Positions 2,238-9,626 of a DNA stretch of 64,000 bases are shown in pieces. A program made the position numbers and the translations under genes. The stretch is from Aphrocallistes beatrix. Lineage: Eukaryota; Porifera; Hexactinellida; Sceptrulophora; Aphrocallistidae. The DNA lies in contig OY725497.1 of NCBI GenBank assembly GCA_963281255.1, positions 4,270,968-4,334,967 on the forward strand, in the 5' to 3' direction. Every line of letters starts with the position of its first letter. Within the stretch, counting starts at the first letter, position 1. The notes under the pieces were generated by a model. The model was given only the letters and a program-made list of their open reading frames with translations, was not told where the DNA came from and searched no databases.

Positions 2238-3748
2238 TTAGTAATTTTCTAGTCGGATCCTAAACGTAGTGATCCCGTTAGCTTTCTCAATCTTAGTGAT
2301 ACGGAATCTAGCTCCACTAGGATAGAGGAATTCTTCTTCACGTTGAATATCAGAATGATTCTTGATTCCCTTTGCTGCGTATTTTGTGCCTTGAGTATTG
2401 TCACAAATAAACATGCAGGATCCTGAAAATTGTTTGGCTACACTCTCTTTCAGAGAAGTAGAAGTAAAGCAGAGCCATGTGAAGGTTTCCCCTTCTTTGT
2501 ATGCACTGATTGCATCAGGAGGAAGGTCCATTGCTCTGAATGTAGGTTCATTGGTAGGTATGATGTTAGTCCAGTACATAAGGACTGAGTTCAGTAGGAT
2601 TCCGTAAGCAGCAAAGGCTAGATCTTCTCCGGAGACAAATGAAGTATTAGATCCATGTCCGTGCGTACGTAGAGAGGTATTCAGGGATGAGTAGAATGTA
2701 TTGCTGCTATTTCCACCATACCTCAAATTGATTGGACATTCTTGTGTATACAGTTTAATCACTCGAGAATAAAAATTACTTTTATCCTCGAGCACCTGAT
2801 CCATAATGTTCCCATTTGGATCCTCTGTAGCAAGAAACTTAGCAGCGTATACATCAATGGATTGGAGCTGGAGTGACACCTCCCGTCTGGCTTTCTCCCA
2901 ATTATTCCCTGAGTTAATGAACTTAAATATGTCTGACATCAAAGTGGAATAGACCAAAGAATGCTTAGAATTTAGAGTTTTGGGATGGAGTACATTTTCG
3001 AAACTATTTAAAGTTAACAAAATAGATTCAACTTCAATATCTTGTTCTTTTTTAATGGACACCAAAGTGGGCATTGATTTTGCTTCTAATGACTTCATTT
3101 TAATTTCTTCATAATGTTTGATAAGCGTTTTCACATTGAGATCTTTCGCTATCTGGTAGGCTGTTGATCCAGCTGCGATAACACCATCTCGTGTTTGTTT
3201 TGTTCTTAAGAACGGGTCACATTTGCGATTAGCAAGAATTTTCGTAACAGCATTGTAATCATTGAAATATGCAGCTTGATGCAACAACCCCCATGCTCTG
3301 TCTGGGGGAATGAAGTTCACGATTGCTGGATATTCATCGAGAATTTCAAAAGCCTCTGGAAATTCCCATCTTTTCCAAATGCTATCATTCTTTCGGTTTC
3401 TTCTGAAACGTTAAATGGTTTTTCAATTCTGCACTTTTGTAGTTTAGCCAGGAAAATGACAATATCAAAGCTCAGTTGTTCCTTTGGATCAATTCCAGTC
3501 CCTTCAAAAAGTTTATGTATAGAATGATTTGCAGCTCCAACTTCATCCTCATTGACTTCTACATTGGGGAACAAATCCTTGAGATGGTCAATGGAGATTG
3601 GTTTGTTAGGACACATCGGTTGAGTTGGGTTGTGCGTATGGAATACATTTTGGAATGGCCATCCCCACAATCTTCCAGTATTGCAATATCTGCAATTAGG
3701 GTCACCTGCATTTCCTGGACAATTCGGTTTTGAATCAGAATTACCCAT
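2238..3748 (-). CDS. Ankyrin-like plus mono-ADP-ribosyltransferase protein, reading frame broken once
   Basis: Two overlapping minus-strand frames (3317-3748, 143 residues; 2238-3320, 360 residues) together make one protein. The first starts MGNSDSK, a potential N-myristoylation signal. The second resumes a helical repeat (WEFPEAFEILDEYP, then WGLLHQAAYFND and an ankyrin-like segment). The C-terminal 200 residues carry an R-S-E type ADP-ribosyltransferase core: Arg in TFRAMDLP, the STS motif in CFTSTSLKES, and the EEE acidic motif in REEEFLYPSG. This predicts NAD-dependent mono-ADP-ribosylation, probably of arginine; the target is unknown. The frames meet near 3380-3390 at an AAAA run, and a change of one base would join them. 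That could be an assembly error, a real null allele or, less likely, ribosomal slippage. Ankyrin-ART proteins of this layout are, from memory, common in rotifers. Confidence 0.75.
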
Positions 3749-4774: not shown

Positions 4775-7175
4775 TCACGTGAACACCTTAATCCTATTGC
4801 TGATCCTAGACCGACAGCTGGGACAGATGCTCAACAGAGAGGCGCACCTGTCGCACAGCTGATGGTGTCTGCAGGGCATCAGCACGACTGCTCTCTCCGC
4901 GCTCGCACACACCACACACAAGCGCTGACCCTCCAACACCTCCATCTCCTCCTGCAACAGCTGGGAGAGTTCTCGCATTCGGGATTCGGACACAGAGGGG
5001 CCTGCCCCCTGACTGGAGACCAGTTCGTACAGCGCACTGCTCCTCTCCACGAGCATGCACCGCAGCTTCTCTACCTTCTGCTTACTCACCTCGCTGCTAC
5101 GTTCTTGAGACACTCTCTCCTCTTTCAGTTCCGTCTTTAGCCTCTCTGCCACTTCCTCTCTGTGCGCCAGTTCACTCTTCACGTCGACCAGTTGCCCACG
5201 CAGCCCACTTATCTCCTTGCCACTCCTCGCCTCCTCTTCTCTCATCTTGTCGTCGTATGACTGAATGAGCGCCGCCTGTTTGCTCAAGAAGTCCTCCTCC
5301 CCTCTCTCTAGCTTCCCCTCCAGAGCACTCACCTCCCGCTGCAGCTGCTGGTAGTGCCGCAGCATCTCGGACTCGCGGCCCACCATCTGCTGCTTCAGGG
5401 ACTCCAGACTCTGAGTGAGCGCCCGGACCCGATCCTCCTTCTCCTTCCAGCGCAGCTCCTCTCCAGACCCGGCGTGGAGAGGCTGGCAGTAGGGAGGTGC
5501 CAGGCTGCAGGACTGGGACATCAAGCTCCCGAGGAGGACAGCGGATCCGTACGTGACTCCAGACACCATCATATGGTTAGTCGGAAAGCTGCCTGACAGG
5601 GAATGAAGCTAGGTTCGCACACAGAACACAGCTACCTCAGAACTCACCTGCATCCTGCTTCATGGTGGAGAAGATGGAGCTGGCGAGGAATCCATGAGCG
5701 AAGAAGTGCGGCGCCTGTGAGACCTGAGTGTTGAAGTTTTGGCAGACAGCAATGGGGTCTAGCATCCAGCGAGGGATCTCTAGGAACTTCTCGATAGTGA
5801 TTGCTATCCTATCTGCGGGTTGCTGTGTCACCTGGACACTGCCCATTGAGAACTGAGGGTAGACAGTCCTGACTGCTTCCACCGCGTGTCTGAGGACGGC
5901 GAGTTCTTCTTCAGACAAACTCTCCAAAGGGACACTGTCCTCGAGGAGAACTAGCCCCGGAACGGCCTGGGACCGCAGGTAGTCCTGCCTCGAGAGGAAC
6001 ATCCCGGATCGCATCAGGAGGTCTACCAGCATGTTGTTACACAGAACGATGTTCTGTCCGATCTCCAGCTTCAGCTCTGAGAGAGGCGCCCCTGAGGAGC
6101 TGAGGGGGTAGGCCTGCTCCCCGTACCTCTTCAGGAACTCCCGCGCAAGAGACCTCGCAGTCTCTCTATTATCGAAGTAGAACCCTGCGTGTCTCGTGTC
6201 GCAGCAGTTGTCCCCCTTCTCCACCAGCAGACCCAGGTAGACCGGGATCAGCTGTGGATGCATCTCCAGCGCGACCGCCCACATCGCAGAGACCGTGTGG
6301 TCCAGCTCGGACTGGTGCAGCACGGAGCGCCGGTCCCTGTCCAACCGGAGTCTGTGCAGATTCACACCTGCCAGCATCCCGCCGGCCGCCTCGGTCATGT
6401 CCGCCACCCAAATTTGGCGCACGTAGAGCTGTCCTGAAAATCGGTCGCCCATCAGCAGCCAGCCGGCCTCACTCTTGATACATTCCTCAGGAGGAAGCGT
6501 CTCCAGGAAGAGGAAGCGTGCGCAGAACCTTTTCCACTCGGCTTTAAGGAGGGGGTACAGGGTGAGACAGGTGTCCTCCGGAGAGAGCTTCAGAAGGGAG
6601 GTGTCAATATCCACCTCTCCCTCTCCACTCCTCTGCGACACTTGCACTGTCAGGACCTGCTCTTCAAACACCGGGTCGCGTTCCATACAGAACATCCACC
6701 TGTCCCTCTGAGTTTCCATTACAAGCTGTCTCCCCTCTCGGACGAGCGCCAGTGCCCCCACCTTCAGACCCTCTCCAAACTGTCCGATCACTTCCTTCCT
6801 CTCGGATTTATCCGAATACCCCAGCAGTAGAACTTTACGAGCTAACTCAGTGCTGCTGTTGATGAGGTGAAGCGAGCTTTTGACTTTATCCAGGATAATC
6901 CTTCCCAGTGCTACCTTCCTCTCCCCCTCACCATCCGTGCAGTAAACATGAGCCCTGAACACCAAGCCCAATGGTGAGTCGTCCCTGGAGATCACTGGCC
7001 CTCCCAGCTTGGGACTATGCTGTCCTGAACTGGCTAGCTCCTGGGAAATGTGGTCGATTGTAGACAAGAGGCCGTCATACCAGTTCTGCACAATCTCCCT
7101 CAGCCCTTCCCAGATCTTCCAAGATTTGGCATAGTCCTTTGTCAGTGAGAGACGGATCGTGTGCTGCTTACTCAT
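4775..7175 (-). CDS. GHKL-type ATPase domain fused to coiled coil and C-terminal RING finger
   Basis: Two exons, 5648-7175 and 4775-5592, are joined across a 55-bp intron (donor GCAG|GTGAGT, acceptor CTGTCAG|GCAGC) that keeps one frame and gives 781 residues. The N-terminus has a GHKL/HATPase N-box, E27-x3-N31-x2-D34 within LREIVQNWYDG, and a glycine-rich lid motif GQFGEGLK at about 131-138. Residues of about 545-700 form a Glu/Arg/Gln-rich coiled coil. Residues 735-781 form a RING of the Cys-x2-Cys...Cys-x-His type (CVVC, CRHHQLCDRC, CPSC), like those of IAP or Mib proteins. The prediction is an ATP-binding, probably self-associating E3 ubiquitin ligase, but neither activity is shown. Without the splice, the second exon would look like a separate RING protein starting at MMVSG. 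I recognise the domains but no named orthologue. Confidence 0.8.
5593..5647 (-). other. Intron of the GHKL-RING gene
   Basis: A 55-bp GT..AG intron in phase 1. It is predicted because both flanking frames stay open and fuse in frame, and because donor GTGAGT and acceptor CCCTGTCAG fit consensus well. It is the only thing that separates the ATPase and RING frames. Confidence 0.8.
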
Positions 7176-7699
7176 ACCAACTAAATCTTCTTACATTGTA
7201 TAAGATGTACTACTATGTACGGACTAATTCAAGTAAGAGGTTGATTACTTGTGTAGTTATGGTTGACAGGTTTGCTAATTGTGTCTATGTTTTGTAAGTT
7301 TTGTCAATGTTTTTTATCCAGTTCAACTAATTGTGTTAAAATTAATTGGCATTTTACACAGTTTATACTACGCATTTCAAAATAACATTTTAGCTCTAGC
7401 TGCAGCTGTTTTTGCAAATTAAGTATGTTTTTGTTTTTTTATTGTTCAAAACTCTAAACTGTTTTAGAAAGACAAAACCGAAACCGGAAATTTCATCCTG
7501 CAAGCGAATAGCGAGGTAACTAGGGGGAAGGAGACAACACGGACTTTAATCCTGCAGTCCCAGCCCTCCCTAGCTGAGGTAGAATTATATCTAAGGTTCT
7601 ATCTATTTAATTGAAAATACGGACACTCAAAAAAGGTATTCCTCTAAAAGTGATGTGCAGCATCGAGACTATTCTAAATAACTACTCTAAATAAGGGAA
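7176..7699. other. Intergenic region between the Mgm101-like and GHKL-RING genes
   Basis: About 520 bp of T-rich DNA serving as the upstream region of the GHKL-RING gene and the downstream region of the Mgm101-like gene. No repeat or further gene is evident. Confidence 0.5.
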
Positions 7700-8455
7700 T
7701 TATGTGAATTTTGAAGTTGGCCTCCAAGGATAGGAAATAGCTGAGTCATGGCCTTTCTTTCTCCAAAGAAACTTGTTGACTTTAGTTGAGACGTGCTCAC
7801 ACATAATTCTTTCTGCGTACTTCTCTCTCCATGTATTCACAAACTCCTCCTCAATTAGCTGCTGCGTCATCCCAAGGTCTCGACAGCAGCTATGAAGCGC
7901 ATCCCGCTTAGAAACCTCATAGGCAGTCAACACCCCACTCCTCTGCTGGCTAAAACCATAGCACATTGATTCCCCCACTCCCATAGCTAAGAACCTGCCC
8001 TCACAATACAACCCGAATTCCCTTATCAGACACCAGGTGCTATCTTGGATCTGAAACAGTGTCGGTTTAGAGATGGGGACGATGGACCAGCCCCCGATAC
8101 CGAATGCTTTGTTTAGCAAGGACTGGTAGAAATGTTGGTACATGTAGAGACCCCCATCAAAACGCTTTATCTGGATCTCAGAATCTTCAGGGGCTACGTG
8201 TAATATCGAGATTATACTTTGGTCAAGCGGCTTCTCAGACATTCCCATATAAACGTTTGGAGGAGATGAGCAGCCCTCAAAATTAACAGAAGTCAATGAG
8301 TCCGACTGTTTCCTAAATCGCTCATGCTTAGGAAAAGTGGATGAAGGTTCCTCAAGTTCGAAAGTAGTTAGGTCCTCTTTCATTAAAGTAGAAAATTGAA
8401 TGTGAGTAGAAAAGCGAGAGATGGGAAACAAACCTTTACCAAATAGTTTCAGCAT
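7700..8455 (-). CDS. Mgm101-type mitochondrial recombinase
   Basis: Intronless gene for 251 residues. The core (about residues 80-235) matches the Mgm101 pattern I know from fungi: ILHVAPEDSEIQIKRFDGGL, YMYQHFYQSLLNKAFGIGGW, a SIVPISKP segment, LIREFGLYCEGRFLAMGVGE, then a Lys/Cys-rich helix (SKRDALHSCCRDLGM) and a basic tail KFLWRKKG. Mgm101 is a Rad52-like single-strand annealing protein that maintains mitochondrial DNA by recombination. The first 75 residues are variable, with a basic, hydroxylated start (MLKLFGKGLFPISRFSTHIQ) suitable as a mitochondrial targeting peptide. The start is the first ATG. Vertebrates lack this protein as far as I recall, so its presence is a useful lineage marker. 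Confidence 0.85.
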   Translation of the reverse strand: MLKLFGKGLFPISRFSTHIQFSTLMKEDLTTFELEEPSSTFPKHERFRKQSDSLTSVNFEGCSSPPNVYMGMSEKPLDQSIISILHVAPEDSEIQIKRFDGGLYMYQHFYQSLLNKAFGIGGWSIVPISKPTLFQIQDSTWCLIREFGLYCEGRFLAMGVGESMCYGFSQQRSGVLTAYEVSKRDALHSCCRDLGMTQQLIEEEFVNTWREKYAERIMCEHVSTKVNKFLWRKKGHDSAISYPWRPTSKFT

Positions 8456-9626
8456 TGGATCTAAAACTGTTGTGTAGGATCAAATCTAATATCCAAGAGT
8501 TTGCATACATATTTGATAATTAATGATGAATTCACATATAAGAAACTATGATATAGAATGACCCCGCGAGAGTCGGTTTTGCAACTCAAGTATCTACGTA
8601 CTACTCCGCTGCAAATACTAGTTTGAATTATTTTTCTGCAGTTTTGAAAGATTAATATACGTACATCGATCAGAGGAGTTGTAAAAATATGGTTCTATAC
8701 AAATTGCTCATCTCACAACTACACGTATTTGAAAAGTTTTACATCTCTCATTAATGACATCATCATAAACCAAAATGATGAGTAATTGTTAAATTATTAC
8801 GTCACCATACGTATACAAGTTTCAAAAAATTCCACAAAAAATATAGACATTAAAATTGATACACAAATAGTTCGTTGCGTCACGAAGTGTTCATCAGGCG
8901 CACAGCGTTAAGTACGCTCGTATCTTCATATAACGGACCCAATGCAATAATAATAATGAGAAGGATCCACATGCCAAAATTAGGTAAGTAGACCATTATA
9001 TGTATGAGCTATGCTACTACCTATTATCAGAAATATTTGAATTAATACATTTGTAAAGCTTAATTTCTTGATAATTTCCTTTAGTAGATAAAGAAATTAT
9101 AAAATTGTTCAAGAAAATATGTTATTCAATACAAAATATATACCTGCAAGTAAACAATAAATCGACATCGTTGCGGTTAATTTATTAAAGCCTTATTTGA
9201 ATAAAAAATATTTCATCAAGTTAGGAAATGTACAACTTTCACAATCTAATGTGAAAGTATATTAATTTTGGCGAAACGATCAAATAAACAAACCTTAAGT
9301 CTTGTGATGCAACATTTATTGCTAGAATTTATAGAATTATCAATTTAAAACATCAATTCGAATTAAGGTGTTGATATTTTGTACAGTATAAGTGCACAAT
9401 TGTATATAACCACTACATATGAGCATGAGTGCAAATTTGGAGAATACTGACTCCAGCCAAGCAAAATACTAGACAATATCTACGGAAGTTGTTGATAACT
9501 AAAAAGGAATTTTTGCTTACAACGAAACTATATGCAAATAAGAGTTCATCTATAACAATAAAACAAGTTTGGATAGTTTAATTAATTTAAATTGTAAGAA
9601 CAGAACATAATCAATGTGTTAGAACA
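8456..9626. other. Intergenic region between TMEM242-like and Mgm101-like genes
   Basis: About 1.17 kb of AT-rich DNA with no convincing coding frame, RNA gene or transposon terminus. Confidence 0.5.

Follow-up and report, generated by a model that had tools for sequence, protein, structure and literature searches.

Gene structure and splice signals

We analysed a gene on the minus strand (7175–4775) of a 64-kb stretch of the genome of the hexactinellid sponge Aphrocallistes beatrix (the whole stretch of 64,000 nucleotides is called the window here). Two long frames joined by a 55-bp GT-AG intron give a predicted product of 781 residues, in which a half related to a family of phage GHKL proteins precedes a coiled coil and a RING (Table 1). 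The phage kinship of the ATPase half is a more interesting fact than the fusion itself, which is what had first been noted at this locus.

The exon-1 frame is an open reading frame of 517 codons from stop to stop (5637–7190), and its TGA (5639–5637) starts 8 nt into the intron. The predicted splice has the donor CAG/GTGAGT and the acceptor TTCATTCCCTGTCAG/G after a pyrimidine-rich tract, and the unspliced intron carries in-frame stops. The donor 9-mer CAGGTGAGT occurs in 2 copies when both strands of the window are counted (shuffle mean 0.58; two or more in 12 of 100 shuffles), which is unremarkable; the argument for the splice is where this donor lies, right at the end of the exon-1 frame, not how often it occurs.

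Table 1. Features of the gene, with positions in the window
Feature	Position	Strand	Remarks
Exon 1	5648..7175	-	Residues 1-509 and first base of codon 510; alignment spans an entire phage-type GHKL protein
Bergerat (GHKL) ATP-binding domain	6576..7163	-	Residues ~5-200 (predicted)
N-box REIVQNWYD	7074..7100	-	Residues 26-34; E27, N31, D34
G2/lid motif GQFGEGLK	6762..6785	-	Residues 131-138 (G131-K138)
Middle (transducer-like) domain with LYV...LDRDR	6006..6560	-	Residues ~206-390; fold comparison gives a match to the Hsp90 middle domain
RDR motif	6330..6338	-	Residues 280-282; aligned to HtpG 'LNVSRE'
Degenerate zincin-like region (putative)	5649..5933	-	Residues ~415-509; HExxH replaced by H490-F-F-A-H494 (MAFFT alignments)
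Intron, GT-AG, 55 bp, phase 1	5593..5647	-	Frame kept across the predicted splice
Exon 2	4775..5592	-	Last two bases of codon 510, residues 511-781, stop codon
Coiled coil	5021..5464	-	Residues 553-700
C3HC4 RING and C-terminal tail	4778..4918	-	RING residues 735-769; tail to 781 with R770, F780

The first exon belongs to a phage protein family

A search of PHROGs with exon 1 returned phrog_6077 at E 4.8e-29, with the best stretch at profile positions 43–307 of 366, and more weakly phrog_8203 (E 2.1e-4); both are families of unassigned function in PHROGs. Run against the sponge's own genome, the phrog_6077 profile gave E 6.1e-19 over positions 43–307 plus a second stretch at 3–31, and the animal protein carries the PHROG_6077 signatures (N-box RExxQNxxD, lid GxFGEGxK and RDR). 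By three queries, exon 1 is the only member of the family in this 100.5-Mb genome; 11 places match HATPase_c_3 at E ≤ 1, none of them answering to exon 1.

A tblastn search of 50,697 phage records with exon 1 gave 92 that matched at E ≤ 1, the lowest E-value being 9e-12, and one record has a feature labelled RIIA under its match. Among plasmids, 3 of 72,556 records matched at E ≤ 0.01. Profile-guided scans of IMG/VR confirmed 98 of 151 candidate stretches and then 126 of 174, the best at E 1e-35 over residues 7–387 (the best 80 were kept in each scan, and the E-values are relative to the candidates only). The genome-contig scan gave at least 25 loci out of 586 candidate stretches, the bacterial counts being lower bounds. 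Single-protein scans with exon 1 by exact peptide patterns found no relative in viral or genome contigs, and such a scan with the relative L015 recovered only L015 itself. A protein of the E. coli phage 4MG does match L015. In 2 of 14 control genomes, those of Thermus composti and Deinobacterium chartae, the phrog_6077 profile matched as well, and the family therefore reaches bacterial genomes.

To place the animal protein, a tree of 57 rows was built, selected by hand from the relatives at hand with the animal as the only eukaryote; it was limited to the GHKL and middle parts so that the zincin metallopeptidase domain of some relatives could not drive the grouping. The animal fell in a 19-row set with 18 zincin-bearing rows (97/94), and the next larger starred set held 23 rows, 22 of them zincin-bearing (98/95). 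Besides the animal, the 19-row set comprises 17 viral-contig rows and one bacterial bin (L095, Candidatus Aerophobetes). The end branch of the animal (2.88) was flagged as long. Matches to the terminase profile phrog_2 were obtained in 4 of 14 records from zincin-clade viruses, with E-values of 1e-17 or lower for two; this supports their assignment to tailed phages only in part, because 11 of 14 bacterial and archaeal control genomes match as well. Within 3 kb of 18 zincin-clade loci, no neighbouring partner was common to more than two loci.

Some relatives depart from the common layout. The frames of L115 (3998–6262) and L117 (3896–6259), of 755 and 788 codons in Nomurabacteria / Paceibacterota bins, apparently hold two tandem GHKL units, each with its own lid motif. 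The zincin-bearing viral relative L136 (3001–4443) has a cysteine-rich insertion in the GHKL domain, before the G1 region.

GHKL motifs and predicted fold

Motif conservation was scored over 111 relatives (80, plus 35 of 80 later IMG/VR rows and 9 of 25 genome-contig loci, with duplicates removed). The 98 relatives with W..[RK]E keep the N of the N-box in 94 cases and the D in 93; the E belongs to the search pattern, and many relatives were retrieved by that motif. The lid pattern G[KQRSG][FYW]GEG is present in 106 of 111, although the relatives were largely retrieved by it. The RDR string was found in all 111 and is in none of the scan patterns; residues 280–282 presumably lie near the position of the Hsp90 catalytic-arginine loop, and the phage-family profile also aligns weakly to the HtpG middle domain as a second stretch. 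The G1 box DxGxG is absent from the animal, which has N106-S-S-T-E at that place, with neither Asp nor Gly. The G1 Asp is also missing in 101 of 106 relatives scored (5 D), in a column whose register was set by hand from the downstream LLLG motif; in the 27 zincin-bearing relatives this column is Asn in 19, and the next Gly is kept in 22.

Exon 1 had no Pfam match of any kind at E ≤ 1, GHKL/HATPase models included, and no NCBIfam or PADLOC model matched it at E ≤ 0.1; Pfam HSP90 gave no match at E ≤ 1 for the 781-residue product. The sacsin-type ATP-binding domain NF047352 did not match exon 1 and matched L134, L095, L080 and L147 (4 of 4 tested) below its curated cut-off, and PADLOC TmtA gave weak matches in 4 relatives tested and none for exon 1. 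The AlphaFold2 model of the animal protein has a predicted Bergerat fold, and in the fold comparison (VIA-align) model residues 8–347 superposed on Hsp90B 21–455 in an N-terminal plus middle domain arrangement, with Hsp90 as the best fold match. The GHKL assignment is thus based on phage-family membership and the AlphaFold2 model, not on Pfam. An earlier note on this DNA, which had read E27, N31, D34 and the GQFGEGLK lid as marks of a GHKL ATPase, was right about these residues in the translated product; its assignment holds through the phage family and the fold, and was not matched by any Pfam HATPase model. The Bergerat fold, on which the note had made its reading depend, is found in the predicted N-terminal model.

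The zincin domain of the relatives and its putative remnant

Of the 111 distinct relatives scored, 27 have an HExxH close to the C-terminal end, with an H, D or E located 6–14 residues downstream of it. Metallopeptidase Pfam families (SprT-like, M90, others) matched the zincin parts in 3 of 5 relatives, below cut-off only, and gave no match for the animal stretch. Among the matches listed by Protein Data Bank fold searches with L134 there was no zincin chain, the list being taken up by GHKL proteins, and the zincin reading is therefore based on the HExxH and the predicted topology.

The animal has no HExxH, and its third-ligand stretch is missing or displaced. A profile of 19 zincin-bearing relatives scored 187 bits on the animal over residues 6–455, past the end of the best phrog_6077 stretch (382). 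In a zincin-region profile test the animal scored -2.1. For 150 full shuffles the mean was -15.6 (standard deviation 4.8) and the highest score -1.4; with residues 471–510 shuffled alone, the animal's score was reached in 2 of 150. By hhalign, a profile built from 9 zincin-bearing relatives matched the animal C-terminus, taken as a single sequence, at only E 0.092, aligning the stretch before the HExxH, and residues 395–560 alone came out narrowly ahead of 500 shuffles (E 0.0035 vs 0.0086), which are weak results. Shuffling the exon-2 head made no difference, and the viral homology thus ends with exon 1. A third zinc-ligand His in exon 2, proposed by one of three MAFFT modes, was rejected, as 64 of 150 exon-2-head shuffles scored equal or better. 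A hand alignment of HExxH to VCQNFNT was dropped, as the MAFFT runs place HFFAH there.

The second exon encodes a coiled coil and an IAP-like RING

Residues 553–700 contain no proline and are 42% charged, and their heptad contrast was matched by 0 of 2000 shuffles. The RING matched PF13920 at residues 732–774 (E 6.7e-11; score 42.3 bits, cut-off 27), with all 8 zinc ligands of the C3HC4 pattern within residues 735–769. Its nearest solved RINGs are those of BIRC3, BIRC2, CGRRF1 and XIAP (E 1.1e-8 to 8e-8), and F780 aligns with the terminal Phe of BIRC3, BIRC2 and XIAP. In IAP ligases, the active RING dimer is supported by a C-terminal aromatic residue and by the Arg that follows the last Cys. 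No Pfam BIR domain matched the 781-residue product at E ≤ 1. A search of the sponge's genome with exon 2 returned itself and 34 weaker places (best E 3.2e-6); because these other matches are weak, no clear donor was found in this genome. The long coiled coil and the classical C-terminal RING (zf-C3HC4_3) of the earlier note are accordingly borne out by the heptad shuffles and by PF13920 with its eight ligands, and sequence signals agree with its 55-bp intron in position, splice sites and phase.

Genomic surroundings

Matches were obtained for 8 of 10 neighbouring frames in the window, including a short-chain dehydrogenase, an ADP-ribosyltransferase, Mgm101, mevalonate diphosphate decarboxylase, a calponin-homology protein, TECR, a DEAD helicase and a chondroitin GalNAc-transferase. 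Mgm101p (PF06420, E 6.1e-37), a fungal mitochondrial recombinase, has its one match in this genome at 7703–8479 (-), about 0.5 kb upstream of the gene. On the downstream side, 2241–3410 (-) encodes the arginine ADP-ribosyltransferase domain (PF01129, E 2.4e-8), in the same orientation as the gene. The DEAD-box helicase gene is seemingly cut by a short GTATGT...CTAG gap, seen by eye; the automated donor pattern gave no candidate. Elsewhere in the genome, weak HATPase_c_3 matches at C7:1097589, C3:6232701 and C3:6500148 lie in frames of 5153, 2325 and 4040 codons, possibly sacsin-like giant single-exon proteins. Two nuclear-receptor DNA-binding domains were also found, and a Wnt search run without a positive control gave no match; this combination would be in keeping with a glass sponge.

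Interpretation and alternatives

We consider it moderately probable that the gene is a fusion of a phage-type Hsp90-like GHKL ATPase with a coiled coil and an IAP-type RING, acting as a dimeric E3 ligase. Exon 1 would be a diverged full-length member of a phage Hsp90-like GHKL family in which the closest members carry a zincin metallopeptidase domain at the C-terminus. Its gene was probably acquired by the animal lineage from a phage or the phage's bacterial host; the peptidase active site would then have been lost, and an intron positioned shortly ahead of the old stop codon would have brought in the RING exon. The product would probably act as an E3 ubiquitin ligase, a dimer joined through its coiled coil and RING. 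ATP binding may close the Hsp90-like clamp on a bound target or bring the two halves into an active arrangement, whereupon the RINGs would transfer ubiquitin from an E2 either to that target or to the ligase itself. By analogy, an Hsp90-like clamp together with a coiled coil and a RING that is dimeric in its relatives suggests such an ATP-gated dimer. The interpretation given in the earlier note, an ATP-gated clamp with ubiquitin ligase output, is supported in part. A bolder version, which we hold only tentatively, is that the animal domesticated the entire phage GHKL-zincin protein, with the old stop now inside the new intron and a RING added, to give an ATP-gated ligase whose sensing half came from virus-host conflict and which may mark foreign or misassembled complexes.

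Several results weigh against the favoured fusion. The exact place of the animal in the tree is unsure because its branch is long, and the family may occur in other eukaryotes, the direction of transfer being judged from phage, viral, bacterial and plasmid collections and the sponge's own genome. The Pfam GHKL models match 3 of 5 relatives tested, each below cut-off, and ATP binding could be lost, judging from the NSSTE sequence of the G1 box, which lacks the Gly that 22 of 27 zincin-bearing relatives keep. A zincin remnant in the animal is likely, on weak sequence signals; the AlphaFold2 confidence (predicted local distance difference test) is below 50 over much of residues ~415–509, and the remnant is not modelled. 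No homology was found across the exon junction in the profile test, where the 64 of 150 exon-2-head shuffles cited above scored equal or better, so that the proposed fusion depends on the splice signals.

This last point bears on the unlikely alternative that the intron is often retained or not real, and that the locus makes two separate or alternative products, a 512-residue GHKL protein without RING and a coiled-coil RING protein. Left unspliced, the exon-1 frame meets a stop 8 nt beyond the splice point, at the place where the viral proteins end, and Met codons are present near the start of the exon-2 frame. However, the exact donor stands at the very end of the exon-1 frame, the acceptor has its pyrimidine tract and the frame is kept. 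The G+C content of third codon positions is alike and high in both exons (0.71 and 0.75; two other frames of the window reach 0.65 and 0.72), and only about 65 bp separate the first stop from the first Met of the exon-2 frame.

More doubtful than the ATP-gated ligase, too, is a pseudo-ATPase scaffold, in which the GHKL part can no longer bind or hydrolyse ATP and its sole role is to give the RING a platform for target binding and dimerisation. The G1 box without Asp and Gly and the long animal branch are in its favour, as is the loss of the zincin HExxH, by which decay happened elsewhere in the protein; yet E27, N31, D34, the lid and RDR are all kept, and the G1 Asp is missing from most relatives as well. 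Quite improbable, in our judgement, is that this is an ordinary animal gene passed down vertically, a relative of MORC or sacsin, for example, in a GHKL family that has been little studied, with the phage proteins as derived borrowers. MORC2 and sacsin are distantly related by structure or by profile, and in the sponge Amphimedon, according to an excerpt of one source, sacsin-like proteins carry fused death domains (PMC3710099). Against this stand the strong phage-family match of exon 1 beside its negative Pfam, NCBIfam and PADLOC searches, the lack of a paralogue or answering HATPase_c_3 place in the genome, and the position of the animal, the only eukaryotic row, among viral and bacterial rows in the tree.

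If the fusion reading is true, an animal ubiquitin ligase has its recognition or motor half from the phage-bacterial world, and a phage family of unassigned function with more than 100 viral-contig relatives (126 confirmed), some with an intact metallopeptidase motif, gains a testable handle. Since the GHKL clamp and the IAP-type RING that it joins are both dimeric in their relatives, ATP-gated ubiquitin transfer becomes a direct question. Going by titles and abstract openings, we recognised no GHKL/Bergerat/HATPase-RING fusion or phage-derived RING ATPase in our searches of open-licence papers.

Comparison with known systems

The closest counterparts are the PHROG_6077 phage proteins and the zincin-bearing viral-contig relatives, which share the full exon-1 length, N-box, lid, RDR and domain order with the animal protein; unlike them, the animal adds a coiled coil and a RING, has no HExxH, carries an insertion at about residues 45–97 and sits on a long branch. 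In Hsp90, HtpG and TRAP1, too, a middle domain that contains an arginine loop comes after the Bergerat domain, and they give the best fold match, whereas the animal has no Pfam HSP90 match and no G1 Asp and ends in a coiled coil and a RING. MORC ATPases resemble it in their GHKL fold and, in general plan, in a coiled coil and a zinc-binding module, with a weak profile match to MORC2. The CW-type zinc finger is typical of the MORC family; the animal has no match to it (Pfam, E ≤ 1), its zinc module is a RING, and its fold score to MORC is below that to Hsp90. The IAP-type ligases BIRC2, BIRC3 and XIAP share the RING sequence and the C-terminal aromatic residue, but in the animal a GHKL ATPase precedes the RING and no BIR domain is matched. 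T4 rIIA-type phage proteins, with an N-terminal GHKL domain and a variable C-terminus, are likened to the exon-1 family by that layout. An excerpt of a published account counts rIIA orthologues, with their GHKL domain and variable tails, among poorly understood phage counter-defence systems (PMC7824862), and by this comparison a conflict-related past of the exon-1 family is plausible.
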